From: Mycolicibacterium lutetiense | GTDB taxonomy: Bacteria > Actinomycetota > Actinomycetes > Mycobacteriales > Mycobacteriaceae | DNA length: 64,000 nucleotides | Reading direction: 5' to 3' | Assembly (NCBI RefSeq): GCF_017876775.1 | Contig: NZ_JAGIOP010000002.1 | Coordinates: 1,426,001-1,490,000 of the forward strand | Part shown: piece by piece, positions 4,771 to 30,944 of the stretch | Position numbering within the stretch: position 1 is the first letter of the stretch | Layout of the letters: each line of letters starts with the position of its first letter | Program-made: the position numbers and the translations under genes | Notes under the pieces: generated by a model | The model's database searches: none | The model's input: only the letters and a program-made list of their open reading frames with translations | Told to the model about the DNA's origin: nothing

Positions 4771-4787
4771 ACGGTAATGCTTTCAGT
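4771..4787. promoter_or_regulatory. copy of the ACTGTAA-N3-TTACAGT operator
   Basis: ACGGTAA-TGC-TTTCAGT matches the repeated palindrome of this region at 6/7 and 6/7 half-site positions. It lies in the 90-base gap between the divergent epimerase and luciferase-like genes and could control both. Confidence 0.6.
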
Positions 4788-4822
4788 AGCACTCTGGAAA
4801 CGGGTCAGAAACCGGGAGATCG

Positions 4823-5734
4823 ATGAAGTACACTCTGGAATATCCCAGCGAACTGCCCACCGCACCTGAGGATTTCCTGCAGCCCGAGGCCATCCGCGCG
4901 GTCGCGACCCAGGCCGAGGCCGCAGACTTCTCGGCGATCGCATTGAGCGAGCACCCGGCCCCGTCGGCCAAGTGGCGCCACAACGGCGGCCACAACACCC
5001 TGGACCCGATCTCCGCGCTGAGCTTCATGGCGGCAGCCACCACGCACATCCGGTTGATGACCAATCTGTACGTGCTCCCGTTCCGCAATCCGTACCTGTC
5101 GGCCAAGGCGCTGGGCAGTCTGGATCTGGTTTCCGGTGGCCGACTGATCGCCGGCGTCGGGGCGGGCTATCTGCGATCGGAGTTCGCGGCGGTGGGCGTC
5201 GACATCGACCGTCGGGCGGAACTGCTCGACGAGGCGTTGGCCGCGCTTCGCTCCATCTGGGCGGATCCGGAAAGACCGTTTGTCGGTATGGATTTCGGAG
5301 CGATTGGTGAGCTCTGGCTGCAACGCCCGGCGCAGCAACCCCATCCGCCGATCTGGATCGGCGGGAACGGCGCCGCCGCGATCCGGCGCGTGGTCGAGCA
5401 CGGCAACGGGTGGATGCCGATCATCGCTGCGGTGGGCATGGCCTCGACGATGCGCACCGCGGCCATCGAAGATGCCGACCAGTTCGGCGCCGCCGTCCAG
5501 CGCCTGCGCGACCGCCTCGCCGATGCCGGCCGTGACCCGCACTCGGTCGATGTCCAAGTGGTGTGCCCGCCTACCGACCTGGATGACGAAGCGTCCCTCC
5601 GGCACGCACGTGACGTGTTGGCCGAACTCGCCGGCCATGGTGCCACCTGGGCAGTTGTGCATGCGGACGGCAGCAGCCCAGCGGCCGCACTCGACTACAT
5701 CAAGGCCTTCGGCGAGATGGTGATCATGCACTGA
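4823..5734 (+). CDS. LLM-class (luciferase-like) F420-type oxidoreductase
   Basis: A 303-residue TIM-barrel protein of the luciferase-like family. Typical features are ALSEHPAPS near residue 40, LDPISALSFMAAATTHIRL near 60-80, the strand LVSGGRLIAGVGAGYLRSEF near 105-125, and HPPIWIGGNG near 175. Mycobacterial proteins of this kind usually use coenzyme F420, though FMN use cannot be excluded from sequence. ATG at 4823 follows GGGAGA. It is monocistronic, with a stem-loop just after its stop and one copy of the shared operator upstream, so it probably belongs to the 4.8-31 kb regulon. The substrate is unknown. Confidence 0.85.
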   Translation: MKYTLEYPSELPTAPEDFLQPEAIRAVATQAEAADFSAIALSEHPAPSAKWRHNGGHNTLDPISALSFMAAATTHIRLMTNLYVLPFRNPYLSAKALGSLDLVSGGRLIAGVGAGYLRSEFAAVGVDIDRRAELLDEALAALRSIWADPERPFVGMDFGAIGELWLQRPAQQPHPPIWIGGNGAAAIRRVVEHGNGWMPIIAAVGMASTMRTAAIEDADQFGAAVQRLRDRLADAGRDPHSVDVQVVCPPTDLDDEASLRHARDVLAELAGHGATWAVVHADGSSPAAALDYIKAFGEMVIMH

Positions 5735-5787
5735 CTCTGCGTTCGGGGCGCGATCGCGCGAGAAGGCTGAACCCTCAGCGCAGAGTC
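5733..5787. terminator. hairpin between convergent genes
   Basis: GACTCTGCG (5733-5741) and CGCAGAGTC (5779-5787) form a perfect 9-base stem around a GC-rich 37-base loop that has further pairing potential. It fills the gap between two convergent genes and has no U-tract, as is common for mycobacterial terminators. It could serve both strands. Confidence 0.5.
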
Positions 5788-5799
5788 AATGGCAGGCCG

Positions 5800-6234
5800 C
5801 TAGGCGGTCTTGAATTTGAGCAGGGTTCGGGTCAGGTGCAGACTGGTGATCTGCCATGTGCCGTCACGCTTTTCGTAGGTCTCGTGGTAGTGACCCGCGC
5901 CGTGCAGCTCACCGCCGTCGGGGAAGAACAACATGTCCTCCATGGCCCAGATGCCGGTCGCGGTCGTGTCGGAGGTCAGCGCGATCTCGGGCGTGTGGCA
6001 GTGGTGCACCGTCGCTGCGTGCTCGACACCGCCCCAGACCACCGGGAAGAACTCATCGAAGCTCTTCAGCGGCGGAGCGGTCTGCGGGTCGGCACCGCCG
6101 GTCGAGACGGCCATGTCGAGTGTCACCACCACATCTTCGACGAAGAGCGCTCGCCAGGCATCGATGTCCTTGGTGTCCAGGAACCGGCAGTAACGGGCCT
6201 TGAGCTGCTTGATCGCCTCGACGTCGTCGGACAA
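5800..6234 (-). CDS. SnoaL/NTF2-like protein
   Basis: A 144-residue protein of the NTF2-like cone fold (SnoaL_4 type): an N-terminal helix AIKQLKARYCRFLDTKDIDA followed by WRALFVEDVVV, then beta strands including GIWAMEDMLFF and HYHETYEKRDGTWQI. The family holds dehydratases, isomerases, small-subunit-like proteins and binding proteins, often in ring-degradation clusters. Residues such as His79/His80 (VHHCH) and Tyr/His in GHYHETY could be catalytic. It starts at ATG 6234 and is divergent from the Rieske oxygenase gene; the spacer contains two possible operator copies. Exact function is not known. Confidence 0.75.
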   Translation of the reverse strand: MSDDVEAIKQLKARYCRFLDTKDIDAWRALFVEDVVVTLDMAVSTGGADPQTAPPLKSFDEFFPVVWGGVEHAATVHHCHTPEIALTSDTTATGIWAMEDMLFFPDGGELHGAGHYHETYEKRDGTWQITSLHLTRTLLKFKTA

Positions 6235-6267
6235 CGGGTCACCTCCTGATCGACTGCGGCGAACTAT

Positions 6268-6332: not shown

Positions 6333-6349
6333 ACTGTAATGTCTTCCGT
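6333..6349. promoter_or_regulatory. copy of the ACTGTAA-N3-TTACAGT operator (one perfect half)
   Basis: ACTGTAA-TGT-CTTCCGT has one perfect half-site and a 4/7 second half, about 40 bases before the Rieske oxygenase start. The overlapping CAGTA/TACTG pair just upstream adds symmetry. Confidence 0.45.
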
Positions 6350-6389
6350 AACTATTGCGCGCGCAGCGAAACAGGAGGGCAGCGGGACC

Positions 6390-7412
6390 ATGAAAGTGCC
6401 GTTCACCTGGAAGGTCACCGGCTGGTTCATGATCGGCTGGTCGGCAGAATACGAGGTCGGCGACGTGAAGGCGCTGAAGTACTTCGGTGAAGACCTCGCC
6501 GCCTACCGCGACGAGTCCGGCGAGATGCATGTGCTGGAAGCACATTGCAAGCACCTGGGTGCCCACATCGGACACGGCGGCACGGTTGTCGGGGACTGTG
6601 TCGAGTGCCCGTTCCACGGCTGGCGCTGGGGCCCCGAAGGGAACAACACCTATATCCCTTACCAGCCCGACAAGCCGAACCGCGGCCTGCGGCTACGGTC
6701 CTACCCGGTCAAGGAGCAGTACGGCTGCATCTTCATGTGGTACCAGCCCGACGGGAAGGAACCGCAGTGGGAACTGCCCGACATCTTCCACAAGTTCCCA
6801 CAGTTCGAGACCGATCCGGACGCGTACTACCGGCCCTATCCCGAGTTCTCCAGCCGGGCCGATGCCATCCCGGTCCATCCGCAGATCGTGGCCGAGAACG
6901 CCCCCGACAGTTCCCATTTCCGCTACGTGCACGGCGCGACGGTGACACCGGTCTGTCTGTATTGGGAGGGCGTCGACCAAGAGTGGCGGTTCCTCACCGG
7001 TTGGCCCGATACCCGCAGCGACGATCCGGACAAGATGGCCCTGCGTATCCACAGCCACTACTCCGGGCTCGGATTCGCCATGAGCGTCTTCGAAGGTTCC
7101 TCGAATCACCGACTGATCTTCGCCTGCACCCCAGTCGACGATGAGGTGTCGGACATGTTCTATTCGATCTGGTGGCCTAAAGAATCAGGCACAGCTGCCG
7201 GGTCCGACATCCCGCCCCAGCACGTACGCGAGAAGGTGGAGAAGCAGTTCCTCAAAACGGTATGGGAGGACTGCGACATCTGGCGCTATCAGAAGTACGT
7301 CGAGCATCCACCGCTGGCAAAGGTCGACGCCAAACATTATATGGCCCTGCGTAAGTGGGCCACCCGATTCTACGAAGTGCCCGCCGAAACCGACACCGTC
7401 GCGCACGCATGA
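6390..7412 (+). CDS. KshA-like Rieske non-heme iron oxygenase, oxygenase subunit
   Basis: A 340-residue oxygenase. The Rieske [2Fe-2S] ligands are C-K-H and C-P-F-H, about residues 53-76 (CKHLGAHIGHGG then CPFHGWRW). The mononuclear iron site is visible as ENAPDSSHFRYVHGA, giving the two His of the 2-His-1-carboxylate set. The layout and the stretch after the Rieske motif resemble the 3-ketosteroid 9-alpha-hydroxylase oxygenase KshA. ATG at 6390 follows AGGAGG; an upstream in-frame ATG at 6339 would lie within the operator region. It would hydroxylate a ring or side chain, needing a reductase that is not encoded in this window. It overlaps the next gene by ATGA. Confidence 0.88.
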   Translation: MKVPFTWKVTGWFMIGWSAEYEVGDVKALKYFGEDLAAYRDESGEMHVLEAHCKHLGAHIGHGGTVVGDCVECPFHGWRWGPEGNNTYIPYQPDKPNRGLRLRSYPVKEQYGCIFMWYQPDGKEPQWELPDIFHKFPQFETDPDAYYRPYPEFSSRADAIPVHPQIVAENAPDSSHFRYVHGATVTPVCLYWEGVDQEWRFLTGWPDTRSDDPDKMALRIHSHYSGLGFAMSVFEGSSNHRLIFACTPVDDEVSDMFYSIWWPKESGTAAGSDIPPQHVREKVEKQFLKTVWEDCDIWRYQKYVEHPPLAKVDAKHYMALRKWATRFYEVPAETDTVAHA

Positions 7413-8026
7413 GGCCCGACCTGAAAGACCTTGTCGCGCCCGGCCACACCGCGATCATCACCCAGGAGTGTCAGGGCGCGGTGGTCGGTCCCGACGCCGG
7501 GCTGGCCGCACTGGCCGACGAGGCCCGCCGCGAGGCCCTACCCAACATCGCCCGACTGCTACCGGCGGCCCGAGCCGTCTCGGCCCGGGTCGTGCACTGT
7601 CTCGTGCAGCGGCGCCCGGATGGCCTGGGCTCCAACCACAATGCCAAGATCTTCGCGATCGGACGCAGCGACGTCGGCATCCTGCCCGGAAGTCCCGGCG
7701 CCACCCTGCTTCCCGAATTCGGCCCGGAGCCCGACGATCTCGTACTGTCCCGCTGGCACGGACTGGGGCCGATGGGCGGCACCGACCTGGACCCGATCCT
7801 GCGCAACCTCGGCGTGAGCACGATCGTGGCCGTGGGCGTCTCGGTGAACATCGCGATCACCAACCTGGTGATGGACGCGGTCAACGCCGGGTACCGGGTG
7901 GTCCTGCCGCGGGATGCGGTGGCAGGGATCCCGACGGCCTATGCCGACGCGGTCATCGACAATACGTTGTCTCTGCTGGCCACCGTCACCACGACCAACG
8001 ACCTGCTGCACGCCTGGCAGCACTGA
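7409..8026 (+). CDS. isochorismatase-fold protein lacking the catalytic triad
   Basis: A 205-residue protein of the isochorismatase/nicotinamidase fold, recognised by the N-terminal strand HTAIITQECQG, the GGTDLDPIL segment and the helix after AVGVSVNIAITN. The family's Asp, Lys and Cys align with Glu20, Arg115 and Ala149 here (GVxTxxCVxxT reads GVSVNIAIT). So the usual nucleophile is absent, which argues against amide hydrolysis by the standard mechanism; PhzD-like members act without the Cys but keep the Asp. Start ATG at 7409 overlaps the Rieske stop (ATGA), implying joint translation and a shared pathway. Role unknown. Confidence 0.8.
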   Translation: MRPDLKDLVAPGHTAIITQECQGAVVGPDAGLAALADEARREALPNIARLLPAARAVSARVVHCLVQRRPDGLGSNHNAKIFAIGRSDVGILPGSPGATLLPEFGPEPDDLVLSRWHGLGPMGGTDLDPILRNLGVSTIVAVGVSVNIAITNLVMDAVNAGYRVVLPRDAVAGIPTAYADAVIDNTLSLLATVTTTNDLLHAWQH

Positions 8027-8062
8027 CCCGCCCCCCTGCCCTCAACCAAAGAGGAGAAGCCC

Positions 8063-9718
8063 GTGCAGTTCACCGTTCCCGTCGTAGCCGAAGCAGTCGC
8101 AGCCGCCATCGGCGACCGCCCGCTGATCGTCCAGGGCGACCGTCGGTTCACCTACCGCCAGATCATGGACCGGTCGAATCAGCTGGCGGCGTATCTGCAT
8201 TCGCGCGGGCTGGGAGCCCAGACCGAACGTGGCGACCTGGCCGGCCACGAGGTAGGTCAGGACCTGCTGGGCATCTACGCCTACAACGGGCCGGAATTCG
8301 TCGAGTCCCTGCTCGGCTCTTTCCGGGCCCGGGTCGCACCGTTCAACGTCAACTATCGCTACGTCAAGAACGAACTGCAGTACCTGCTCGCCGACTCCGG
8401 CGCGTCCGCGCTGGTCTATCACGCGGCCTTCGCACCGCGGGTGGCCGAGGTCCTCCCCGACCTGCCCGCCCTCCGGGTGCTGATCCAGATCGCCGACGAC
8501 TCCGGCAACGAACTGCTCGACGGCGCAGTGGATTACGAGACGATCGTCGGTGATGCCACGGCAGCAGCGCCTCCTGTCCAACCCAACCCCGACGACCTGT
8601 ACGTGCTCTACACCGGCGGCACGACCGGCATGCCCAAGGGCGTGCTGTGGCGCCAGCACGACATATTCATGACCGCGTTCGGTGGGCGCAACATGGTGAC
8701 CGGCGAGAAAGCGCGGTCCGTCGAGGAGATCGTCGGGCGTGCGGTCGACAATCCGGGTACCAAGCTGATGATCCTGCCGCCGCTGATCCACGGCGCGGCA
8801 CAGTGGGCCGCGATGACGGCGATCAGCACCGGCCAAACCCTGGTATTTCCCTCCGTAGTCGACCGTTTCGATGCCGATGACGTGGTCCGCACCATCGAAC
8901 GCGAACAGGTGCTGGTGGCCACGGTGGTGGGTGACGCCATGGCACGCCCGCTCCTGGATGCGATCAAGGCAGGAACTGCGGACGTCTCCTCGCTGTCGGT
9001 CGTCGCCAACGGGGGCGCGCAGCTGACCCCCTACGTCAAACAGCAACTCATCGATGCGAAGGCCAATCTGATCGTCGTCGACGGGGTGGGGTCATCGGAG
9101 ACCGGCGCCCAGATGAGCCACATGTCGGCCCCCGGCGCGGTGTCGACCGGAACCTTCAACGCTGGCCCCGATACCTGTGTGGTCACCGAGGATTTCACCG
9201 CTGTCCTGCCTGCCGGCCACGAGGGGCTGGGTTGGCTGGCGCAGCGGGGGTTCGTGCCGCTGGGCTACAAGGGTGATGCCGCCAAGACCGCGGCGACGTT
9301 CCCGGTGATCGACGGTGTGCGCTACGCGACGCCGGGTGACCGGGCCTGCCACCTGGACAGCGGAGCCGTCGAACTCCTCGGCCGGGATTCGGTCACCATC
9401 AACTCCGGCGGCGAGAAGATCTTCGCCGAGGAGGTCGAATCCGCGATCGCGTCGCATCCGGCGGTGCGGGACGTGGTGGTCACCGGCCGCCCCAGTGAAC
9501 GCTGGGGACAGGAGGTGGTGGCTGTCGTCTGTTTGGCCGAGGAGGCGTTGGCGGACGGCCCCGTAGAGGCCGACGACCTCATCCGGCACGCCGAAACATC
9601 GATCGCCCGCTACAAGCTGCCCAAGGCCGTGGTGTTCCGCCCCGCCATCGAGCGCAGCCCGGCAGGCAAGGCCGATTACCGGTGGGCCCGCGAGCAGGCG
9701 GTCAGCGAAACTTCCTGA
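8063..9718 (+). CDS. acyl-CoA synthetase (FadD-like, AMP-forming)
   Basis: A 551-residue ANL-superfamily ligase. The P-loop YTGGTTGMPKG lies near residues 183-193 followed by VLWRQ, as in the mycobacterial FadD17/FadD19 group acting on sterol side-chain acids. The motif GVGSSETG gives the A5 region, DRACHLDSGAVELLGRDSVTINSGGEKI the hinge A7/A8 region, and SPAGKADYRW the C-terminal catalytic Lys. It follows the isochorismatase-fold gene after 36 bases with a GAGGAG site. It would load an acid intermediate with CoA. The 24487 ligase is a paralogue. Its end overlaps the convergent aldehyde dehydrogenase by 17 bases. Confidence 0.9.
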   Translation: MQFTVPVVAEAVAAAIGDRPLIVQGDRRFTYRQIMDRSNQLAAYLHSRGLGAQTERGDLAGHEVGQDLLGIYAYNGPEFVESLLGSFRARVAPFNVNYRYVKNELQYLLADSGASALVYHAAFAPRVAEVLPDLPALRVLIQIADDSGNELLDGAVDYETIVGDATAAAPPVQPNPDDLYVLYTGGTTGMPKGVLWRQHDIFMTAFGGRNMVTGEKARSVEEIVGRAVDNPGTKLMILPPLIHGAAQWAAMTAISTGQTLVFPSVVDRFDADDVVRTIEREQVLVATVVGDAMARPLLDAIKAGTADVSSLSVVANGGAQLTPYVKQQLIDAKANLIVVDGVGSSETGAQMSHMSAPGAVSTGTFNAGPDTCVVTEDFTAVLPAGHEGLGWLAQRGFVPLGYKGDAAKTAATFPVIDGVRYATPGDRACHLDSGAVELLGRDSVTINSGGEKIFAEEVESAIASHPAVRDVVVTGRPSERWGQEVVAVVCLAEEALADGPVEADDLIRHAETSIARYKLPKAVVFRPAIERSPAGKADYRWAREQAVSETS

Positions 9719-11189
9719 GCCTCGCTGCGGTTCGGCTGCGGGCCCGTCGCAGACTGAGGTCGGCGCTGACCCGCATGGACGCACTGAACGGTCGGGCGGC
9801 CTGGCCCGTGACACTGAATGGCAGGTCGCTGCCGACCACGGTGCGGTAGTGGCTGAACGCATCGAAACCCGCCTTGCCGTGGTAGGCGCCGGTCCCGCTG
9901 CGGCCGACGCCGCCGAACGGGGCATCAGACGGAATCATGTGCGCGGCAAAATCATTGCGGGCCACCCCACCGCTGCGGGTATGGCTGACGAAGTGCCGGA
10001 AGTCGGCGTTGTCGGGGCCGAACCAGTACGCCACCAACGGTGACGGGTTGGCGTTGATGTGGTCGACCGCCTCGGTGAGCCTGGAGTAGCCGCGAACCAT
10101 CAGCACCGGCCCGAACACTTCCTCGCTCGCGATCCGCATCCGGTCGTCCACGTCACGCACGATGGTCGGAGCGATCTTGCGGGAGACCGGATCGGGCAGG
10201 ATCTCCCCCGCCGGCACCACGGAGTCGATTCGGGCTCCGTGCGCGCGGGCGTCGGCGATCAAGCCGACCACCCGGTCGAAATTGGCCTGGTTCACCGAGG
10301 AGCAGTAGTCGGCGTTGTCGATGATGCTGGGAAACATGGCGCTCAGGGCCTTTCGCGCCACCGCGACGAACCGGTCGACCTCAGCATCGGGAACAAAGAC
10401 GTAGTCCGGGCATACACACACCTGACCGCCATTGACCATGCGCGCCTGGGCGATTCGGTTCGCTGCCCGTTCGATGTCGGCGCCGGGTGCCACCACCACG
10501 GGGTTTTTGCCACCCAACTCCAACGTCACCGGCACCAGGTTGTCCGATGCCGCCCGTGCCACCAGAGCCCCGATCGATGGTGAGCCGGTGAAGAAGATGT
10601 GGTCGAACGGTAGGCCCGCGAACTCGGCGGCCACCTCCGGCCCCCCGGTCACCACCTGCAGTTCGGCCGGGTCGAAATACTTCGGCGCGGTCGCCGCCAT
10701 CAGTTCGGCGGTGCGGGGGGTGACCTCCGACATCTTGATCATCACCCGGTTGCCCGCGGCGAATGCCGCTGCGGCCGGCAGCACTGTCAACTGGATCGGG
10801 AAATTCCACGGACCGATCACCCCCACCACACCGAGCGGGCTCGGGACCACTTCGGCGCGCAATCCCGCGAAGCGAGCCGCCCGCATCAGCTTCGTCGCGC
10901 GCATCCATTGCGGCACATGCGCCCTGGTGTGCTCGATGACCGAGAGCATGCCCAGGATCTCGGCGAAGAAGGCCGCCGACCGCGACCGCGATCCGTAGTC
11001 GGCCGCGGTGGCGGCGACGAAATCCTCGGAGTTGTCCAACACCATCGCCAGTAGTCGGTCGATGCGGTTGCGGCGCAAAGCGATATCGGCCGGACCGTCG
11101 GCGATGAACGACCGGCGCTGGACGGCCAGCAGCTCGTCCAGGCCCCCGCGCTGCGGTTGCACCGTTGCCCGCTCCTCGATCGCGCTCAT
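9702..11189 (-). CDS. aldehyde dehydrogenase (coniferyl-aldehyde-dehydrogenase-like)
   Basis: A 495-residue ALDH. LELGGKNP near residues 221-228 carries the general-base Glu, and NGGQVCVCPDY places the nucleophile at Cys258. The short length and the sequence GVGRSGTGAYHGKAGFDAFSH near the C terminus fit class 3-like ALDHs, which oxidise aromatic or long-chain aldehydes with NAD(P). ATG at 11189 is preceded by GAGGGG; an upstream in-frame start at 11330 would run through the promoter region. It is divergent from the SDR gene at 11349. It probably converts an alcohol-derived aldehyde to the acid used by the adjacent ligase. Confidence 0.88.
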   Translation of the reverse strand: MSAIEERATVQPQRGGLDELLAVQRRSFIADGPADIALRRNRIDRLLAMVLDNSEDFVAATAADYGSRSRSAAFFAEILGMLSVIEHTRAHVPQWMRATKLMRAARFAGLRAEVVPSPLGVVGVIGPWNFPIQLTVLPAAAAFAAGNRVMIKMSEVTPRTAELMAATAPKYFDPAELQVVTGGPEVAAEFAGLPFDHIFFTGSPSIGALVARAASDNLVPVTLELGGKNPVVVAPGADIERAANRIAQARMVNGGQVCVCPDYVFVPDAEVDRFVAVARKALSAMFPSIIDNADYCSSVNQANFDRVVGLIADARAHGARIDSVVPAGEILPDPVSRKIAPTIVRDVDDRMRIASEEVFGPVLMVRGYSRLTEAVDHINANPSPLVAYWFGPDNADFRHFVSHTRSGGVARNDFAAHMIPSDAPFGGVGRSGTGAYHGKAGFDAFSHYRTVVGSDLPFSVTGQAARPFSASMRVSADLSLRRARSRTAARLRKFR

Positions 11190-11238
11190 CGATTCCGTCC
11201 CCTCGTCAGGCACGCGCCAGATACTTCCGAAGGTCCCT

Positions 11239-11255
11239 CCGGTAAGGCTCACGGT
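11239..11255. promoter_or_regulatory. weak copy of the ACTGTAA-N3-TTACAGT operator
   Basis: CCGGTAA-GGC-TCACGGT matches at 5/7 and 5/7 positions, 50 bases upstream of the aldehyde dehydrogenase start. Position supports it more than the sequence does. Confidence 0.35.
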
Positions 11256-11318
11256 AGCACCATCACGGAGACGTGAAGTTGATTGTCCGACCGGCCGGAA
11301 TTGTTTACAGTCATCCTT

Positions 11319-11335
11319 ACTGTCGTTCATTCAGT
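11319..11335. promoter_or_regulatory. copy of the ACTGTAA-N3-TTACAGT operator
   Basis: ACTGTCG-TTC-ATTCAGT keeps ACTGT at one end and TCAGT at the other with the correct 7-base spacing, 13 bases before the SDR start. An extra half-site TTTACAGT ends at 11311. Confidence 0.45.
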
Positions 11336-11348
11336 GAGAGGTTGGGGC

Positions 11349-12134
11349 ATGTCGGAAGCCGCACGCAGAATCGTCGTCGTCGGAGCCGGATCCGGAATCG
11401 GGGCGGCCACCGCGGCGCACTTCTTCGAGCGGGGCGACCACGTACTCGCGGTCGACCTGCGCCCAGGCGACACCCCGGCATCGGAGCACGCCACCTGCGA
11501 CCTTCGGGATGCCACCGACATCGCCCGACTGCTCAGTGAGATCGGTGACGGCTGGGACCTTCTCGCGCATGTCGCAGGCGTTCCGGGGACTGCGCCAGCC
11601 GCCGACGTCCTCAACGTCAACTATCTCGGCATGCGATTGATGGCCGAAGGCATGCTGCCCCTGCTGCGCCACGGCGGGTCGATCGTCACGGTGGCCTCGA
11701 CCGCGGCCCTGGGCTGGCAGCAGCGCATCGACACCCTCGACGGCCTCCTCGAACTGACTGACGGTGACGCGGTGGCGCAGTGGCAGACCGGGCAGGATCC
11801 GAATTTCCCGGTCTACACCACGTCCAAGCAGGCCGCGATCCTGTTCGTCAAACGCGTGGCGGGCCCGGCCTGGGCGAAGTACGGGGTGCGGGTCAACACC
11901 GTCAGCCCGGGCCCGGTGGAGACGCCGATCCTGACTGATTTCGAACAGACCATGGGCAAGGACGTGCTGGACCTGGTGCGCGCCACAGTCGGCCGGCACG
12001 CCACCGTCGACGACGTGGTTCCGCTGATCGCCTTCCTGGCCTCACCCGAGGCGCGTTGGATCAATGGTCAGGACATCCACGTCGACGCCGGTTTCATCGC
12101 GTCGATGAGCAACGGGGCGCCCATCCCGCTCTGA
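11349..12134 (+). CDS. short-chain dehydrogenase/reductase
   Basis: A 261-residue classical SDR. The cofactor motif VVGAGSGIG lies at residues 9-17, the Asp in AVDLRPGD suggests NAD preference, VASTAAL carries the catalytic Ser and YTTSK (Tyr156, Lys160) the catalytic pair. NTVSPGPVETPI and NGQDIHVDAGF are family landmarks. A ~30-residue insertion between the Ser and the Tyr (around LGWQQRIDTLDGLLELTDGD) resembles 3-alpha-hydroxysteroid dehydrogenase-type SDRs. ATG at 11349 is chosen because the reading from 11283 runs through the operator. It would oxidise a ring or side-chain alcohol. Confidence 0.85.
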   Translation: MSEAARRIVVVGAGSGIGAATAAHFFERGDHVLAVDLRPGDTPASEHATCDLRDATDIARLLSEIGDGWDLLAHVAGVPGTAPAADVLNVNYLGMRLMAEGMLPLLRHGGSIVTVASTAALGWQQRIDTLDGLLELTDGDAVAQWQTGQDPNFPVYTTSKQAAILFVKRVAGPAWAKYGVRVNTVSPGPVETPILTDFEQTMGKDVLDLVRATVGRHATVDDVVPLIAFLASPEARWINGQDIHVDAGFIASMSNGAPIPL

Positions 12135-12158: not shown

Positions 12159-12179
12159 TTACTGTAATATTTACAGTAA
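12159..12179. promoter_or_regulatory. best copy of the ACTGTAA-N3-TTACAGT operator
   Basis: TTACTGTAA-TAT-TTACAGTAA is a perfect palindrome with 9-base arms. It lies 45 bases upstream of the P450 start. It defines the consensus used for the other sites. Confidence 0.75.
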
Positions 12180-13458: not shown

Positions 13459-14157
13459 ATGGTCAGACCCGCAAGCACCCGTGGTCGTCAACGCCGCGAG
13501 CGCGGATCGATCAGTGTCGACGAGATCCTGCGCGGCGCTTTCGAAATCGCCGCTGAGGTGTCGATCGACAACCTCAGCATGCCGCAGCTGGCCCGCCACC
13601 TCGATGTCGGCGTGACCAGCATCTACTGGTATTTCCGCCGCAAGGACGAGTTGCTCGACGCGATGACCGAGCGCGTGCTCCGCGATCACGACCTCAGCGT
13701 GCTGTCCATCGAGGCCGGCACCTGGCGAGAATCCCTGCACGCCCACGCCCACCGGATGCGGGATATGTTCACGGGCAATCCGATTGCGTGCGATCTCATC
13801 CTGATCCGCGGCACCCGAGGCCTTCCGGCGGCGCGCACCGCGCTGGAGAAGATCGAACAGCCCGTGGCCGCCCTGGTGGCTGCCGGCCTCACCGCCAAGC
13901 AGGCATTCGACACCTACACGGCCATCTCGGTACTGGTGCGCAGTTCGTCGGTGCTGCAGCGGCTGCAGAACCGCACCGCCGCGGCACAGTTCCCGCGGGA
14001 GTATTGGGAGCAGGTGATCGACGCCGAGGCAATGCCGTTGATCGCCTCGATTCCCGGGCGTGGCTATCGCATCGGCATGGCCGATGACGGGAACTTCGAC
14101 CACATCCTCGACAGCATTCTCGACCGCGCCGCGTCCCTCTGCCGAGCAGACACTTAG
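13459..14157 (+). CDS. TetR family regulator, paralogue A
   Basis: A 232-residue TetR protein with a basic start (RRERGSISVDEILRGAFEIA), then the helix-turn-helix with DNLSMPQLARHLDVGVTSIY and the sequence YWYFRRKDELLDAM. The C-terminal half has NPIACDLILIRGTRG and ends near RGYRIGMADDGNFDHILDSI. It is clearly related along its whole length to the protein at 31163 (shared RRERGSI, VSIDNLSMP, VGVTSIYWYFR, CDLILIR). It lies directly behind the P450 and probably shares its transcript. Either paralogue may bind the repeated palindrome ACTGTAA-N3-TTACAGT. Confidence 0.88.
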   Translation: MVRPASTRGRQRRERGSISVDEILRGAFEIAAEVSIDNLSMPQLARHLDVGVTSIYWYFRRKDELLDAMTERVLRDHDLSVLSIEAGTWRESLHAHAHRMRDMFTGNPIACDLILIRGTRGLPAARTALEKIEQPVAALVAAGLTAKQAFDTYTAISVLVRSSSVLQRLQNRTAAAQFPREYWEQVIDAEAMPLIASIPGRGYRIGMADDGNFDHILDSILDRAASLCRADT

Positions 14158-15689: not shown

Positions 15690-15696
15690 GCAGGCA

Positions 15697-15713: not shown

Positions 15714-15720
15714 AATACCA

Positions 15721-22579: not shown

Positions 22580-22589
22580 GCCTGTTCTC

Positions 22590-23645: not shown

Positions 23646-24490
23646 CATTTCCCCTTTTCGTCCAGGTTCTCGGCGAAGAAGAACTCCGCGGCATTGTTGT
23701 AGAGGTAGTTGTCCAGCACATCGGCCGGCAGGTCCAGCGCGAGCGCCTCGGGCACCACGCGTTGCATACGCAACACGGGGAAATCCGAGGCGAAGATGAC
23801 CTTGCCCTTCCCCCGGGTGCGCATGAAGTGCAGCAGCGATTCCGGTAGCCGCTTGGGCGACCAGGCCGACGTCATGATCCGCAGGTTCTGATACTTGATC
23901 AGCATGCGGATCGCGATGTCCCACCACGGATCTGCCCCGTGGATCATGCAGAGCTTCAACTCCGGGAACCGGACACACACCCGATCGAGGTGGATGGGGT
24001 TCTGCACCTCACCCGGAATCGGCGGGCCGGGGAGACCGGTGTTGACGCACAACGGCAATTCCAGCTCAGCGCATTTGGTGTAGAGCGGGTAGTACACCGC
24101 GTCGCTCGGTGGGTACTGCCCGTCTCCCCAGAAGCTTGGTCCGACAACGGTATAGGCGACCGGAAGGTCGGCCACGACGGCTGCGAGTTCACGCAACGAC
24201 GGGATGGGACGCAACAGGTTGACCCCGCCCATCGCCAGCGCGAAGCGCTCGGGATGCGCCTCGACGAACTTTCGCGCCGTCACCGACGGCTTGACCAGGG
24301 AATCCATCAGGATGGCCTTCTGCACCCCATGGGTGTCCATCTCGTCGAGCATCTCCGACAGGTCGATGGGGTCGTACATCGACGTCGGGCCCTTGAAGTA
24401 ATCGTCGCGCACCTTCTTCATGAAGGTGGGCTGGTTCTCGGTCTCGCCGAAGTGCACATTGGCCAGACAATCAATCACCTTGTGGGTCAT
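23645..24490 (-). CDS. amidohydrolase-2 family protein, shorter
   Basis: A 281-residue amidohydrolase-2 protein. The usual N-terminal DxHxH is changed to DCLANVH, while MIHGADPWW and FASDFPVLRM keep a His and an Asp typical of the family. The loss of the first metal motif leaves the activity uncertain; some family members are decarboxylases with a single metal. Its ATG overlaps the stop of the upstream ligase as ATGA, and its stop overlaps the dehydrogenase start, so it is tightly coupled in this operon. Confidence 0.75.
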   Translation of the reverse strand: MTHKVIDCLANVHFGETENQPTFMKKVRDDYFKGPTSMYDPIDLSEMLDEMDTHGVQKAILMDSLVKPSVTARKFVEAHPERFALAMGGVNLLRPIPSLRELAAVVADLPVAYTVVGPSFWGDGQYPPSDAVYYPLYTKCAELELPLCVNTGLPGPPIPGEVQNPIHLDRVCVRFPELKLCMIHGADPWWDIAIRMLIKYQNLRIMTSAWSPKRLPESLLHFMRTRGKGKVIFASDFPVLRMQRVVPEALALDLPADVLDNYLYNNAAEFFFAENLDEKGK

Positions 24491-26109
24491 GCCTTGATCT
24501 CCGCTTGTTCCGAGGCCAGGCCCTTGGCCCAGCGGTAGTCAGCTTTGCCGTTGCCGAGCCGACGAATCTCCTCGACGAACAGCACATCCTTGGGGAGTTT
24601 GAACCGGGCCAGCCGGGTGGCGCAATGCTCCCGAAGTGCAGCCGCGTCGACCGCGTCCCGCACAGCCACCAGCGCCACGAGCTCTTCGCCCCACCGCTCA
24701 CTCGGGCGACCCACCGCCAGCGCATCCACCACATGAGGATGCGCACGCAGCACTTCTTCGATCTCCTCGACGAACACCTTCTCGCCACCGGTATTGACCA
24801 CCAACGAATCCCGGCCGAACAAGCGCAAGGTGCCGTCGGCCTCCAGCGAGGCGCGGTCACCCGAGACCACCACCCGCTCGCCGGCTACCTCGGGGAAGGT
24901 CTTCACCGTGGCCGCCTCGTCGTTGAAATAGCCGAGTGGGATGCGGCCGTTGCGTGCAGCCCAGCCGACCTCGGTGTCGCCGGCGTCCAGGAACCGTGAG
25001 TAGTCGTCAGCCAGGACCAGGCCGCCGGCCCGCAGCTGGAAGGTCTCGGCAGTCGGGGTTTCCCGCTGGGTGTGGCCGAACCCCATGTTGCCGGTTTCCG
25101 ACGAACCGAATCCGTTGATGACGGTGATCTGCGGGATGTGTTCCAGCAGTGCGCGTTGGTGTTTCGGGTTGGTGGCGGCACCACCGGTACCGATGGCGAA
25201 CATCGAGGACAGGTCGTACGACCGTCGGCCCAACTCCTCGACGATCGGCGCGGCGTAGGCATCGCCCACCATCGTCATCAGGCCGATCTTCTCCCGCTGC
25301 GCGGTTTCGAGCACCGTACGCGGGTCGAACCGCGGCTTGGTGTCGTGCAGCACCACGGTCTGCCCGGACAGCAGTCCGGAGAACGCCGTCCACATCCCGG
25401 CGGCGTGCATCAACGGCGACACCGCGAACCACGGCGGGCCGGCGTGAGCCACCTTGTCGTGAATCTCGCTCACCTGGTCATGGTCGGCACCGTTCATCGA
25501 CGACACGTAGATGTCGCCCTGGCGCCACATCACCCCTTTGGGTCGGCCGGTCGTGCCGCCCGTGCAGACCATCAGTAGATCATCGGGTGACGGGGTGACG
25601 CCTTGGTCGGTATCCCCTTGAGCCAGAGCCTCTTCCAATGTCACCGAGCCCGGTAGCTCGGTACCGTCGCCGTCGTCGATGGAGATCAACACCTCGGCCT
25701 GCAGCGCTTCATCCCCCAATACAGAAGCGAACTTCGCCCCCAGGGAACGGTGGTAGATCACCGCACGGGGCTTCAGGTAGGCCAGCAGGTCGGCCACCTC
25801 ACCCGGTGCGTAGTAGTAGTTCACGTTCACCGGAACCGTGCGCGCCTTGAGGCAGCCGATCACCATCTCGGGGTACAGATCGTTGTGCATGACGAGCGCG
25901 ACGACGTCCTGACCGCATTCCCAACGGTTGAGTTCGCGACGTTCCCGATGCACGCCCAATCCGCGCGAGGCCAGGAAGTTCGCCAACCGGCGGGTCAGGT
26001 CGGATCCTTGCGCGAAGGTGGTGCGACGGTCGCCGCACACCGTCATCTCCCGGTCGGGTACCGCTTCGGCGATCGCGTCGATGACGGCGCCGATGGTCCA
26101 TTCGCCCAT
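24487..26109 (-). CDS. acyl-CoA synthetase (FadD-like)
   Basis: A 540-residue ANL ligase related to the one at 8063. The P-loop TGGTTGRPKGVMWRQ, NGFGSSETGNM, GDRASLEADGTLRLFGRDSL and GNGKADYRW (catalytic Lys) are all present. ATG at 26109 is favoured because the reading from 26277 overlaps the upstream amidohydrolase. It activates a carboxylate to its CoA ester, probably a different intermediate from that of the 8063 enzyme. Overlaps the next gene by four bases. Confidence 0.88.
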   Translation of the reverse strand: MGEWTIGAVIDAIAEAVPDREMTVCGDRRTTFAQGSDLTRRLANFLASRGLGVHRERRELNRWECGQDVVALVMHNDLYPEMVIGCLKARTVPVNVNYYYAPGEVADLLAYLKPRAVIYHRSLGAKFASVLGDEALQAEVLISIDDGDGTELPGSVTLEEALAQGDTDQGVTPSPDDLLMVCTGGTTGRPKGVMWRQGDIYVSSMNGADHDQVSEIHDKVAHAGPPWFAVSPLMHAAGMWTAFSGLLSGQTVVLHDTKPRFDPRTVLETAQREKIGLMTMVGDAYAAPIVEELGRRSYDLSSMFAIGTGGAATNPKHQRALLEHIPQITVINGFGSSETGNMGFGHTQRETPTAETFQLRAGGLVLADDYSRFLDAGDTEVGWAARNGRIPLGYFNDEAATVKTFPEVAGERVVVSGDRASLEADGTLRLFGRDSLVVNTGGEKVFVEEIEEVLRAHPHVVDALAVGRPSERWGEELVALVAVRDAVDAAALREHCATRLARFKLPKDVLFVEEIRRLGNGKADYRWAKGLASEQAEIKA

Positions 26110-26116
26110 GGGGCGA

Positions 26117-27364
26117 CTACGCCGATACCAGATGCGTGACGCCGGGCGCAGTCCGAGTGGCATCGCCGAGCAACTCGAGAGCGTTGTCCCGCATGACTTT
26201 CCGGGTGTCTTCGAGACTGAACTCGGGGAACTGCGGAATATCCGCAGTGAACGTGGTCGGGTCGGCCAGACCCTCACCGTGCGGCCAATCCGAGCCGAAC
26301 AGGATCTTGTCGACGCCGATGGTGTCGGCGAGCAGCTTCACGTCGTCCTCGTAGTACGGCGCGATCCAGACGTTGCTGCGCAGCTGCTCCACCGGATCCT
26401 CCTTGAAGTGGTACGGCGCATTGTTGGCCGCCTTCTTCAGCCGCTTGATCAACCGGTAGACGAAGTACGAGCCGTTCTCGATGCTGACGACCTTGAGCTT
26501 GGGGTGCCGGGTGAACACCTGGTGCACGATCATCGAGGCCATGGTGTCGTGGATCGCCCGGTCATCCATGATCACCATGTCGAGCGGATCGCGCTTGCCG
26601 AATCCCTTGAATACGCCGCTGCCACCCCACAGCGCCGGGACCGCCATGTACCCGGAGTCCGACAGGTGGAACACCACGGCGACACCGGCTTCGGCCAGCC
26701 GGGCCCACACCGGATCGTGAAGCGGATCTCCGAGCGAGCGCGGCCTGACCGCACCCGGTACCGGCGCCGGACGCACACACACCAGCTTGGCGCCGCGGCC
26801 GATCACGAACTCGACTTCCTCGACCGCCTTTTCGGGATCGGCCAGCGAGATGATCGGTGCGGACACGAAGCGGCCGTCGGGCCGGTCGAAGCCCCAGTCC
26901 TCGTCGAGCCACAGGTTGAAGGCGTGCACCGAGGCCATGGTGGCGTCGATATCGTGCTTGAGCCCCTCCTCCACGCCGCACGCGAAAGTCGGGAGCATGA
27001 AAACGGTTTCGAGTCGTTGGCGGTCGAGCACCGTGAGCCGCGCGTCGCGGTCCTGATACTCGGGGTGCTCGGCCAGGCGGTCGACCTTCATCAGGGAAGC
27101 CGGATCCACCCCTTCGGGGATCTCACCACGGAACAACAGATCCAGGCAGCCCGGTTCGATGATCGGATCGAAGGTGGGGTTGGGGATGAAATGATTGACG
27201 GTACCGCCCATCATCGCCAGGGTCCGTTTACCGTCCTGCACCATCTGGACACCGCGGCTCTTGAATTCCTTGGGCAGGTGCCGGGTGAACGCGTCCACCG
27301 GTTCGTAGTAATGGTTGTCGACATCGACGGCCAGGTACGGAAGCCGTTCGGGAGCTTCGGTCAT
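26117..27364 (-). CDS. amidohydrolase-2 family metal-dependent hydrolase, copy 2
   Basis: A 415-residue paralogue of the protein at 19602. It carries DVDNH near residue 14, FHLSDSGY near residue 233 and FGSDWPHGEG near residue 355. The two copies diverge mainly in the middle, suggesting different ring substrates in one pathway. It follows the crotonase gene after four bases. Confidence 0.83.
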   Translation of the reverse strand: MTEAPERLPYLAVDVDNHYYEPVDAFTRHLPKEFKSRGVQMVQDGKRTLAMMGGTVNHFIPNPTFDPIIEPGCLDLLFRGEIPEGVDPASLMKVDRLAEHPEYQDRDARLTVLDRQRLETVFMLPTFACGVEEGLKHDIDATMASVHAFNLWLDEDWGFDRPDGRFVSAPIISLADPEKAVEEVEFVIGRGAKLVCVRPAPVPGAVRPRSLGDPLHDPVWARLAEAGVAVVFHLSDSGYMAVPALWGGSGVFKGFGKRDPLDMVIMDDRAIHDTMASMIVHQVFTRHPKLKVVSIENGSYFVYRLIKRLKKAANNAPYHFKEDPVEQLRSNVWIAPYYEDDVKLLADTIGVDKILFGSDWPHGEGLADPTTFTADIPQFPEFSLEDTRKVMRDNALELLGDATRTAPGVTHLVSA

Positions 27365-27368
27365 GTCA

Positions 27369-28190
27369 TCAACCTTCTTTCAGGTGCGGGAAGTTCGGGG
27401 GCCGTTTTTCGAAGAATGCGGTGATGCCCTCGACGAGGTCGGGCCGCACCATCGACTCGTGCATCAGGGTCTCGGCGCGGGCGCTGACGTCACGCACATC
27501 GTCGTGAGCATCGCCGTACAGCTGGCGCTTGATCACCGCCATTGAGGCGGGTGAGCAGTTACGGGCCAGATCTTCGGCGTACTCCAGCGCCCGGGGAAGC
27601 AGATCCTCCGGTGCGACAACCTCTTTCACCAATCCGAGCTGAAGAGCTTCCTCGGCGAAGAAGGTCCGGCCGGACAGCAGCAGGTCCGCCGACGCGCCCC
27701 AGCCGGCCAGTCGCGGCAGGATCCAGGTGATTCCGTATTCGCCGATCAACCCTCGACGAGGAAAGGCGGTGGCGAATTTCGCTCCGGCCGCAGCGAACCG
27801 GACGTCGCACATCAATGCGTGGGTCAGGCCGATGCCGACACACGCCCCGTTGATGGCGGCGATGACCGGCTTACGCAGTTCGGTCAAGAAGTGCGGGTGA
27901 CGCTCGCCGACGATCTTGCTGACATCGGTGTCCTCGTTGATGCTCGCGCCCAGATCCTGCATCGCGCCCATGTAGGCGCCGGCGCAGAATCCCCGTCCGC
28001 TACCGGTCAGCACGATCACCCGGACCGCCGGATCGGCTTCAGCGCGATCGAAACCCGCGTAGACGCCGGCGGAGATGTCCGCACCCCAGGAGTTCAGGCG
28101 ATCGGGACGGTTGAGGGTGATCACCGCAACCCCGCCGTCGGTCACCTCGTAGAGGACCGCCTCAGTTCCCACACTGTCAGCGACCGTCAC
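27369..28190 (-). CDS. enoyl-CoA hydratase/isomerase family protein
   Basis: A 273-residue crotonase. GRGFCAGAYM and NGACVGIGLTHALMCD form the oxyanion hole, and RRGLIGEYGITWILPRLAG keeps the second catalytic Glu while the first is replaced. Such single-Glu members act as isomerases, hydrolases or C-C lyases as well as hydratases. ATG at 28190. An operator copy lies 46 bases upstream, so this starts the downstream 28190-to-21398 transcript. Confidence 0.85.
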   Translation of the reverse strand: MTVADSVGTEAVLYEVTDGGVAVITLNRPDRLNSWGADISAGVYAGFDRAEADPAVRVIVLTGSGRGFCAGAYMGAMQDLGASINEDTDVSKIVGERHPHFLTELRKPVIAAINGACVGIGLTHALMCDVRFAAAGAKFATAFPRRGLIGEYGITWILPRLAGWGASADLLLSGRTFFAEEALQLGLVKEVVAPEDLLPRALEYAEDLARNCSPASMAVIKRQLYGDAHDDVRDVSARAETLMHESMVRPDLVEGITAFFEKRPPNFPHLKEG

Positions 28191-28235: not shown

Positions 28236-28252
28236 ACTGTATACCTATCGGT
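28236..28252. promoter_or_regulatory. copy of the ACTGTAA-N3-TTACAGT operator
   Basis: ACTGTAT-ACC-TATCGGT matches at 6/7 and 4/7 positions, upstream of the crotonase that opens a seven-gene minus-strand run. Confidence 0.45.
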
Positions 28253-28302: not shown

Positions 28303-29310
28303 TCAAGCGTCGATCAAACCGAGCTTTCGATAGGCCGTCTCTATCTGGGTCTTCGCCGCCGCAGGCAGCATTGCCTGGGGCGGACGGGAATGCGGGTAGT
28401 CACCGACGGGCAATCCCAGCACCGAGGCCGCGTATTTGAACGCATCGGCCCAGTGGGTGAAATAGTCGGCGCGGCCTGGGTAGCAGGTGAACCAGGACCC
28501 CATGTCCAGGCTGAACTGGTCCAAACCGGAGTCCCGCGCGAAGTCCATCGCCTCGATGAGCCGGTCGGCGTACACCAGGTCCCAGTACTCGGTGAAAATG
28601 CGGCGTTGCGGGGTTTCATAGAGGTATCCGGCGGTACCCAGTTGGGCCGCGCAGACGATGCCGTCACGCAGCCAGCCGGCCCGGTACACCGTGGTGTCGC
28701 ATTCCCATACCGCCAAATACGGCGCCAGGTCATGCAGCCGACGGCTCGCCGCAGGCCGGAACGCGCCTTCCTTGGTGGCGCACACCGCCGGGATCGCCTC
28801 GGCGATCCGGGCGCTTTCGTCGGGAGTCAGCACGTAGCCCGAGGACGGGGAATTGAACATTCCCAGGGCGATATCCGTGCGATCGGCGATATAGCGATAG
28901 AACCGCAATACCCCTTCGCCCCCGTGCGCCTCCATCATCGGTGTCTGGATGTAGACGATGTCGGCGCCGGCCTGCTGCGCATGCAGCGTGAGTTCCAGGC
29001 AGTCTTTCGCTGACGTCGCCGCGGTGCAGGCCTGGACCACGACGTCGGGGTTCGCCCGGCGCCCCTCCTCGATCGCCACTTCGAGAAGTTGCTTGCGTTC
29101 GGCGAGGGTCAGTGCCCAGAACTCAGCCAAACCGCTGGTACACCACAGCATCTGGTGGCCGAGATCACCGACGCAGTAGCGCACGAGGTAACGGTAGGCA
29201 TCCCAGTCGATGTCGTCACCGTCGGTTCCACAGAACGGGGTGTAGAGCGAGTCGCCGATTCCGCGCAGCGCTCCTCGCGCCCAGTCCCGCGCCTCGGATG
29301 CCGTTGCCAT
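28303..29310 (-). CDS. DapA/NAL family lyase or hydratase-aldolase
   Basis: A 335-residue class I aldolase-type TIM barrel of the dihydrodipicolinate synthase / N-acetylneuraminate lyase superfamily. The Schiff-base Lys is Lys180 (VCATKEGAF). The family's catalytic Tyr of the YNxP motif is Phe152 (MFNSPSSGY), a notable change. The usual GTTGE segment is altered to CTSGLAEFW. The superfamily includes hydratase-aldolases that cut side chains from aromatic rings in polycyclic degradation. ATG at 29310. The gene shares an operon with an SDR and a crotonase. Substrate unknown. Confidence 0.78.
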   Translation of the reverse strand: MATASEARDWARGALRGIGDSLYTPFCGTDGDDIDWDAYRYLVRYCVGDLGHQMLWCTSGLAEFWALTLAERKQLLEVAIEEGRRANPDVVVQACTAATSAKDCLELTLHAQQAGADIVYIQTPMMEAHGGEGVLRFYRYIADRTDIALGMFNSPSSGYVLTPDESARIAEAIPAVCATKEGAFRPAASRRLHDLAPYLAVWECDTTVYRAGWLRDGIVCAAQLGTAGYLYETPQRRIFTEYWDLVYADRLIEAMDFARDSGLDQFSLDMGSWFTCYPGRADYFTHWADAFKYAASVLGLPVGDYPHSRPPQAMLPAAAKTQIETAYRKLGLIDA

Positions 29311-29319
29311 ATCGCCCCT

Positions 29320-30114
29320 TTAGATGAAGTCCGATCCGCCGTCCACGTTGACGTTGGCCCCGGTCATGTAGGAGTTGCGCTTCGATGCGAGAAAAGCTGC
29401 AACAGGCCCGATTTCGCTGGGGAGTCCGGCGCGCGGCACGTGTGCGGGATGCCCGAAATGCTCGTCGATGGCCGCCATCAAGGCGTACGGATCGTTGCCG
29501 TCGACACCCACCGTGTCGGCCCAGCCTCGTAGCGCCTCCGACGAGATGCTGCCCGGGGAAACCACATTGACCATGATCTCGTCCTTGGCCAACAACAGCG
29601 ACAGGTTCTTGGACACACTGTTCACGGCGGCCTTGGCAGCCGTGTAGGCCGGCAGCCGGGTGCTCTGCCGCTGGGTGGAGTGGGCCGAGAAGTTGACAAT
29701 GCGCGCCCATTCGGCCTTTCGCAGCAACGGCAGCGCCGTACGCACACACCGCACCATGCCCATCAGGCCCGTGTCGAACGCTTCCTGCCACTGGTCGTCG
29801 GCCAGTTCTTCGAAGTTGCCCGCAGCCCCGGGGCCGACCGTGTTGATCAATACGTTGAGCTCGCCCCAACGCTCGCCCACCTCGGCGAAGGCCCGCTCGA
29901 CCTGAGAGCCGTCCGAGGTATCGGCCACGATCGCCACCGCCTCCGGCGATCCCAGGCGGGCCAACTCCGTCGCGGCAGCGTCCAGTACGTCGCGGGACCG
30001 CCCGACGATCGCGATTCGTGCGCCGTCCTCAGCCAGGCACTGGGCCGTCGCGAATCCCATTCCGCGGCCACCGCCCACGACGACGGTGGCCGCACCGGCG
30101 AACCCGAGATCCAT
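29320..30114 (-). CDS. short-chain dehydrogenase/reductase
   Basis: A 264-residue SDR with VVVGGGRGMG at the cofactor site, NTVGPG in place of the NNAG motif, FSAHS for the catalytic Ser, YTAAK for Tyr/Lys and NVDGGSDFI at the end. ATG at 30114 rather than 30147, which lies in the upstream gene. It probably oxidises a hydroxyacyl-CoA or ring alcohol. Confidence 0.85.
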   Translation of the reverse strand: MDLGFAGAATVVVGGGRGMGFATAQCLAEDGARIAIVGRSRDVLDAAATELARLGSPEAVAIVADTSDGSQVERAFAEVGERWGELNVLINTVGPGAAGNFEELADDQWQEAFDTGLMGMVRCVRTALPLLRKAEWARIVNFSAHSTQRQSTRLPAYTAAKAAVNSVSKNLSLLLAKDEIMVNVVSPGSISSEALRGWADTVGVDGNDPYALMAAIDEHFGHPAHVPRAGLPSEIGPVAAFLASKRNSYMTGANVNVDGGSDFI

Positions 30115-30121
30115 GGGACCG

Positions 30122-30883
30122 TCAGGAACCCGTCCAATTGGGAGCACGCTTCTCGGCGAACGCCGTGGCCCCCTCGATGGCGTCCTTGGACGTGAAGACC
30201 GGAGTGATCAACTCGCTCTGGTTCTTCCACATGTCCGCTTCGGACCACTCGGCGGACTTGACGATGATTTCCTTGGTCACCGCGACCGCCAGCGGACCGT
30301 TGGCGGTGATCCGCTCGGCCAACTCGATGGCGCCGTCCAGAGCCTCACCGGGTTCGGTCAGCTTGTTGACGAAGCCCCATGCGGAGGCTTCCTCGGCGGT
30401 GAAATTGTCACCGGTGAGCGCCAACTCGAGAGCCTTCTGATACGGAATGCGCTTGGGTAGCCGCAGCAGACCGCCACCGGCGGCCACCAGTCCACGCTTG
30501 ACCTCGGGGATACCGAACTTCGCGGCCCGTGAGGCCACGATCAGATCGGTGGCCAGGACGATCTCAGTGCCACCGGCCAGTGCGTAGCCTTCGACTGCCG
30601 CGATGAGCGGCTTCCGGGGCGGCTGTTCGGTGAAACCGATCCCCCGCCCGGGAACGTGGGGCAGCTCGCCGGTCGCGAATGCCTTGAGATCCATGCCGGC
30701 ACAGAAGTTGCCCCCGGCGCCGGTGATGATGCCCACCGACAATTCGGGAGTGCCGTCCAACTCGTCCACGGCGTCGGCGAGCCCTTGGGCCACCGCAAGG
30801 TTGAACGCATTGCGCGCTTCCGGACGATTGATCGTGATGATGAGCGTGCGACCCCGACGCTCCCGCAGAACTACTTCCGACAC
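30122..30883 (-). CDS. enoyl-CoA hydratase/isomerase family protein
   Basis: A ~253-residue crotonase with INRPEARNAF, GNFCAGMDLKAF and EGYALAGGTEIVLATD for the oxyanion hole, and FGIPEVKRGLVAAGGGL, which keeps the first catalytic Glu but not the second. GTG at 30883 has AAGGGG at a proper distance; a TTG one codon earlier is the alternative. First gene of the operon with the SDR and the DapA-like lyase, with an operator copy 45 bases upstream. Confidence 0.86.
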   Translation of the reverse strand: MSEVVLRERRGRTLIITINRPEARNAFNLAVAQGLADAVDELDGTPELSVGIITGAGGNFCAGMDLKAFATGELPHVPGRGIGFTEQPPRKPLIAAVEGYALAGGTEIVLATDLIVASRAAKFGIPEVKRGLVAAGGGLLRLPKRIPYQKALELALTGDNFTAEEASAWGFVNKLTEPGEALDGAIELAERITANGPLAVAVTKEIIVKSAEWSEADMWKNQSELITPVFTSKDAIEGATAFAEKRAPNWTGS

Positions 30884-30927
30884 CAACTGCCCCTTCGCTC
30901 ACGAAGCCCAATAACCCGGAAAAGCCT

Positions 30928-30944
30928 ACTATAGGGTTTACAGT
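30928..30944. promoter_or_regulatory. copy of the ACTGTAA-N3-TTACAGT operator
   Basis: ACTATAG-GGT-TTACAGT matches at 5/7 and 7/7 positions, upstream of the crotonase operon and divergent from the second TetR gene. The other ~200 bases of this gap show no further structure I can support. Confidence 0.55.

Follow-up and report, generated by a model that had tools for sequence, protein, structure and literature searches.

The question raised by this locus is which protein recognises a palindrome, ACTGTAA-N3-TTACAGT, that recurs between the genes of a catabolic cluster in Mycolicibacterium lutetiense, and which genes are placed under its control. The DNA analysed is a stretch of 64,000 nucleotides (the window; C2:1426001-1490000 of a 6.35 Mb genome), which encodes two TetR-type proteins, TetR1 and TetR2. 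Sequence comparison made it highly probable that the palindrome is a predicted operator of TetR2, common to the paralogue TetR1, and that it governs a coenzyme A (CoA)-dependent catabolic regulon.

Copies without mismatch are located at 12161, 15697, and 17942, the positions claimed in a reading made earlier from the letters alone (the sequence-only reading). At three or fewer mismatches, seven places were found in the window (4771, 6333, 11307, 12161, 15697, 17942, and 30928), whereas 100 dinucleotide shuffles gave 0.15 on average and never more than 2. The window has 22 perfect 7-3-7 palindromes, and ACTGTAA was the sole arm to recur in them. A weight matrix trained on 64 different 17-mers from other loci, which is partly circular because the training words were chosen at two or fewer mismatches from the consensus, gave scores of 31.6, 31.5, and 30.2 for the perfect sites and of 22.9, 22.2, and 18.0 for the partial sites 30928, 4771, and 6333, respectively. 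Lower values were obtained for 6268 and 11319 (10.9 each), 11307 (7.7), 28236 (6.4), and 38479 (0.2), and places of no note reached 9.3 (11295), 7.4 (3286), 7.0 (29191), 6.6 (11239), and 6.2 (4759). Since the top score per shuffle ranged from 2.9 to 12.1 in 20 shuffles, only the three perfect sites together with 30928, 4771, and 6333 exceed chance by score alone. The matrix scan detected no score above 4.0 in the window outside 3.2-31 kb.

Conservation in orthologous gaps, which the sequence-only reading had named beforehand as a test, was assessed by gap-by-gap alignment of 15 loci of the M. fortuitum group, where the nearest named relatives of the window's TetR1 are found (M. setense, porcinum, septicum, peregrinum, and senegalense), and in nine further TetR2 loci. 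Footprints were recovered in both samples:

12161..12177: predicted operator, perfect, in the SDR1/P450 gap, with the P450-TetR1 unit beginning 46 bp downstream; conserved in 15/15
15697..15713: predicted operator, perfect, 5' of ALDH2 (minus strand); conserved in 15/15
17942..17958: predicted operator, perfect, in the divergent gap between the molybdopterin gene and OB-thiolase; conserved in 14/15
4771..4787: predicted operator with two mismatches, in the gap between the epimerase-like SDR and the LLM oxidoreductase; 14/15
6333..6349: predicted operator with three mismatches, 5' of the Rieske oxygenase; 15/15
11307..11335: two weak overlapping sites, 11307 and 11319, where the divergent ALDH1 and SDR1 genes start; recovered in 15/15
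28236..28252: variant predicted operator ACTGTATACCTATCGGT, 5' of ECH1-Amid3-FadD2-Amid2 (minus strand); conserved in 9/9 TetR2 loci
30928..30944: variant predicted operator ACTATAG-N3-TTACAGT, in the ECH2/TetR2 divergent gap; conserved in 7/9 TetR2 loci, two not returned

In the M. fortuitum group, 6333, 11300-11335, 12161, and 15697 were thus recovered at every locus, and 4771 and 17942 at all except one, some with one or two changes; in the relatives the operator arms were constant while the spacer varied. The footprints support the partial sites 4771, 6333, 11319, 28236, and 30928 of the sequence-only reading, but leave its site 6268 doubtful, as this was returned from 10 of the 15 loci and was like the window in 6 of the 15. 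Better copies of the 6333 site were found in L088 and L094, and the latter carries ACTGTCGTCCTTACAGT in its ALDH1/SDR1 gap, where both window scores (11307 and 11319) fall inside the shuffle range. The same is true of the score of 28236, a site that is near-invariant across 33 bases in the nine TetR2 loci, the following 33 bases being variable, and that recurs as ACTGTATACCTTTCAGT in G022 and Nocardia L108. Even its spacer (ACTGTATACCT) is constant across the window genome, G022, and Nocardia L108, in which respect the perfect sites differ, and a second function of bases 28236-28252 is possible. At 30928 the arms were constant and the spacer variable, and this variant or a close form occurred in G004, G013, G018, G043, G066, G082, G085, and G135. 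The weak match at 38479 was unsupported and was dropped: it was identical in one of the nine TetR2 loci, altered in seven, and not returned from one, with no better copy at any locus.

A search with TetR1 returned 36 loci, namely 34 mycobacterial ones, one from Nocardia, and one from Microbacterium. All 34 mycobacterial loci had a site of two or fewer mismatches approximately 1.3 kb ahead of TetR1, that is, 5' of the P450; outside mycobacteria, Nocardia L108 had one site at another place and L109 had none.

The genes between which these sites lie are the following:

2100..4759, minus strand: FMO-like flavoprotein and epimerase-like SDR, behind site 4771
4823..5734, plus strand: F420-type LLM oxidoreductase
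6339..7412, plus strand: KshA-like Rieske oxygenase
7355..9718, plus strand: isochorismatase-like hydrolase and acyl-CoA ligase FadD1
9702..12134: ALDH1 (minus strand) and SDR1 (plus strand)
12224..13444, plus strand: cytochrome P450
13459..14157, plus strand: TetR1 (P0001), with TetR_N and TetR_C_1 domains; own clade, support 0.99
14154..17898, minus strand: ALDH2 and molybdopterin oxidoreductase
17994..20834, plus strand: OB (ChsH2-like), thiolase of lipid-transfer type, and PF04909 protein Amid1
21398..28190, minus strand: acyl-CoA dehydrogenase, Amid2, FadD2, Amid3, and ECH1
28303..30886, minus strand: DHDPS-family protein, SDR2, and ECH2
31148..31888, plus strand: TetR2 (P0002), with TetR_N and TetR_C_1 domains

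The mechanical reading-frame starts of the Rieske gene (6339), ALDH1, and ALDH2 are probably too early. Judged from order and strand, the FMO-like and epimerase-like SDR genes probably form one unit behind 4771, and an FMO-like gene stands directly beside a perfect site in L093 and others.

Placement was surveyed in 81 sequences (34 TetR1 loci, 20 single TetR2 stretches, nine close-group TetR2 stretches, and 18 others), some of which were picked for having a site and some of whose genomes may be present twice; the counts are tblastn hits, and a site of two or fewer mismatches was scored ahead of each orthologue. Such a site preceded the P450 in 50/50 cases (46 perfect), ALDH2 in 40/40, OB in 17/17, the LLM gene in 8/8, and the molybdopterin gene in 35/36. 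Values for ECH2 (13/19), EpimSDR (16/25), ALDH1 (14/32), TetR2 (15/39), Rieske (16/46), and SDR1 (7/30) were lower, as was that for the thiolase (26/49), ahead of which the OB gene can intervene. No site was found ahead of FadD1 (0/51), which is operon-internal, the isochorismatase-like gene (0/38), Amid1 (0/34), Amid2 (0/31), FadD2 (0/31), or TetR1 (0/16), and the low counts for Amid3 (1/36) and ECH1 (1/37) arise because the 28236-type variant exceeds two mismatches. Sites stand ahead of first genes of units and not ahead of operon-internal genes, and they are conserved in orthologous gaps; the regulon interpretation withstands both of the refuting outcomes named in the sequence-only reading.

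The extent of about 26 kb given in that reading did not hold. The genome contains four perfect copies and eight places at two or fewer mismatches, five of them within the cluster, compared to three places and no perfect copy for a reversed control pattern. The fourth perfect site, C2:3508477 (L009:9478), lies 2.05 Mb away and 29 bp ahead of a P450 open reading frame, and was present with unchanged spacer in G020 and G049; a one-mismatch site, C1:962570, lies 18 bp ahead of another P450 open reading frame, and in G012 and G014 the orthologous gene also has a site with one mismatch. The best reading is that the regulon comprises the cluster and at least two unlinked P450 genes. These two genes behind the operator are found at L010:8302-9587 and L009:9478-13412, and the latter has genes for an AraC-type regulator and a PF04909 protein nearby. 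A two-mismatch place at C1:906517, inside a TetR reading frame (L011:9464-10192), was rejected and may be due to chance, as the reversed control also gives three places at that level. A molybdopterin gene with 67% identity is found at a distance of 2.9 Mb from the cluster in G424, and in G381 one lies on another contig of a fragmented assembly; both have a perfect site ahead of them. Most perfect sites with printed coordinates (67 of 75) were within 40 kb of a TetR gene on the same contig; the remaining eight were three of the distal P450 type, one at 43 kb, and four on other contigs.

With respect to the regulator, TetR1 and TetR2 had TetR_N domain scores of 43.9 and 45.1 bits, respectively, versus a Pfam cut-off of 24. 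The all-helical TetR fold was confirmed, the TetR2 model (predicted local distance difference test score 75.8) being nearest to classical TetR. The two are 55% identical and form sister clades with support of 0.99 and 0.97, and are thus paralogues, as had been proposed; in the tree, 10 sequences labelled TetR2 by BLAST were placed in the TetR1 clade and four tips fell outside both. Residues 51-60, the recognition helix, were the same in all 123 distinct sequences of both types. Among 148 genomes of the genus, a TetR homologue (E 1e-40; four only 39-40% identical) was detected in 117 and the perfect motif in 89, all of them among the 117, with none in the 31 genomes lacking the protein (table 89/0/28/31). 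Of 301 genomes in a family survey, 25 had the motif (2 had the reversed control) and 50 had a TetR2-type protein, all 25 being included in the 50. Outside the genus the motif was present in 2/272 genomes, both with TetR2. At 21 TetR2-like loci, namely L108 and 20 from other genera, the arm sequences shift towards ACTGTAT/ATACAGT; 47 sites at three or fewer mismatches were counted there versus 0 to 2, with none in L219 and L223. These data make TetR1 and TetR2 the best candidates for the regulator of the palindrome, with TetR2 (31148) as the more general putative partner; TetR1 very probably binds the same predicted operator.

Several observations weigh against this assignment. Perfect sites were missing from 28 of the 117 TetR-bearing genomes of the genus, and seven of the 12 inspected among these (G010, G023, G026, G029, G064, G074, and G076) had TetR2 and no site of two or fewer mismatches in the stretches examined, six of which, G026 excepted, contained other cluster genes; no P450 of at least 70% identity, ALDH2, or molybdopterin gene was seen in these seven stretches. 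Outside the genus, 21/23 TetR2-bearing genomes had no perfect site, and the reversed control also matched 2/301. Queries with the distal P450 genes, which cross-hit each other, had a site ahead in 4/17 and 2/14 cases, and the distal sites are therefore less constant. The co-occurrence of motif and protein is confounded with the presence of the cluster as a whole, the genomes are not independent, and co-occurrence and conservation do not distinguish binding by TetR1 from binding by TetR2.

The last point bears on the explanation that just one TetR binds the palindrome, the other having a separate operator and sharing the neighbourhood only. TetR1 begins 14 bp after the P450, whose promoter has a perfect site, and the gap of TetR2 has a variant site with an ACTATAG arm, both of which would suit this explanation. 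The recognition helices are identical, however, and genomes that yielded a TetR2-type protein only (for example G004, G013, G018, and G135) have perfect sites at the same genes, so that we regard it as rather unlikely. Much less probable is binding by the GntR/FCD regulator at 39360-40139, or by another regulator of the cluster: the GntR protein shares the neighbourhood and partly co-occurs with the motif (51/89 motif genomes versus 2/59 others), but no homologue was detected at E 1e-60 in 38/89 motif genomes, for which it was dropped as a partner, and no GntR match at 1e-20 was among the best hits in the 21 TetR2-like loci. It is scarcely credible that no regulator is involved and that the palindrome, a perfect inverted repeat, is just a repeat element or forms an RNA hairpin, given its variable spacer, its constant position 5' of orthologous genes, and its presence in G424 ahead of a gene distant from the cluster.

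With a predicted operator shared by both proteins, TetR2 would act as the general repressor, and TetR1, with its identical recognition helix, would be an ancient paralogue encoded inside the P450 transcription unit. A TetR dimer bound to the palindrome would occlude the core promoter. The mycobacterial -10 pattern is TANNNT, and TACAGT, present in both arms, fits it, from which we infer that the -10 element overlaps with the operator. In-frame start codons are frequently found some 33-47 bp past the edge of the operator, with large variation, and the TetR2 start lies approximately 200 bp away; the 30928 variant would serve ECH2 and perhaps TetR2 too. An intermediate of the pathway, perhaps an acyl-CoA, would free the repressor and thereby lift repression of a CoA-dependent catabolic pathway whose substrate is predicted to be hydrophobic and probably a cyclic isoprenoid. 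A more elaborate version is possible, though we hold it only tentatively: the two repressors, alike in operator but diverged in their ligand domains, may each respond to a different signal (an early intermediate for one and a late one for the other, for instance) and together control a mycobacterial pathway, so far undescribed and terpenoid- or steroid-like, in which several P450s act on CoA-bound substrates alongside dinuclear oxygenases of the amidohydrolase-related kind and a KshA-like Rieske oxygenase. The order of induction would then be set by graded operators, with perfect copies at P450, ALDH2, and thiolase and conserved variant forms in front of ECH1 and between ECH2 and TetR2.

Regarding the substrate, FadD1 and FadD2 belong to subfamily PRK07798, and ECH2 to PRK08252, with EchA19 next at 305 bits, under its cut-off of 400. 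Among proteins of solved structure, KshA is closest to the Rieske protein, OB has ChsH2-type domains, and the thiolase is nearest to lipid-transfer models. PtmU3 acts on a CoA-bound diterpenoid. Amid3 is remotely similar to PtmU3 (60.7 bits), SfbO (8sm6; 42.6), and DitZ, with some His, Glu, and Asp residues aligning with PtmU3; Amid1 matched PtmU3 (49.8 bits), with 8sm6 not among the matches listed, and the best match of both was 4dzi, whose function is unstated. PtmU3 and SfbO are amidohydrolase-related dinuclear oxygenases according to excerpts of PMC10811679, and Amid1 and Amid3, which combine the PF04909 domain with similarity to these enzymes, may be dinuclear oxygenases instead of hydrolases. 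Together these relationships point to a cyclic isoprenoid as the predicted substrate. FadD1 had no match to solved structures at 1e-30, and no substrate clue by name was found among the 120 matches listed of 1774 TetR2 relatives and of 7012 P450 relatives; a plasmid search gave two remote matches (41% and 32%).

Three PF04909 proteins are encoded in the one cluster (19602-20834, 23645-24490, and 26117-27364). The molybdopterin oxidoreductase (15721-17898) is a single 725-aa protein closest to formate dehydrogenase alpha models within an otherwise CoA-based regulon. Outside the regulon, an unassigned 334-aa protein and FMO-like flavoproteins are encoded at 33851-36434 and 59380-60732, with no nearby matrix match above 4.0.

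The results provide a predicted operator together with two candidate regulators and a list of the genes of a catabolic regulon for which the searches made gave no named substrate; the TetR is present in 117 and the perfect operator in 89 of the 148 sampled genus genomes. With a reporter on one such promoter, the substrate could be sought by simple screening for inducers, and a pair of paralogous repressors sharing one operator, if true, could usefully serve for studying how signals are integrated. Searches of the open-licence literature for the motif, for a matching regulon, and for PtmU3 or DitZ gave no paper on the motif among the entries listed; for the motif itself these were 30 of 5,437 papers with either half, and this silence carries little weight.

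Among known systems, the KstR regulon is similar in having a TetR-family repressor, a palindromic operator ahead of many lipid-degradation genes, and mycobacterial conservation, but the KstR sites printed in excerpts of PMC1995591 are of the TAGAAC-GTTCTA type, compared here by eye. The motif was accordingly dropped as a KstR site, as the sequence-only reading had judged, and the 53 solved structures matched by the TetR1 sequence included no chain named KstR. Unlike the classical tetracycline repressor TetR, several dispersed operators lie here ahead of catabolic genes, and no efflux pump was found among 30 neighbour proteins scanned. The eleven predicted mycobacterial TetR motifs of PMC4482099 are likewise palindromes upstream of TetR genes, and the palindrome described here may equal one of them. 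The Lcin1 motif of the Nocardioides simplex bile acid cluster is also a footprinting-derived palindrome in a steroid-type cluster, but is another word, TCCCGGT[C/G]ACCGGGA, in the portion of PMC7593942 consulted. Overall, the palindrome is very probably a real operator with a regulon, apparently new in its particulars and familiar in kind.

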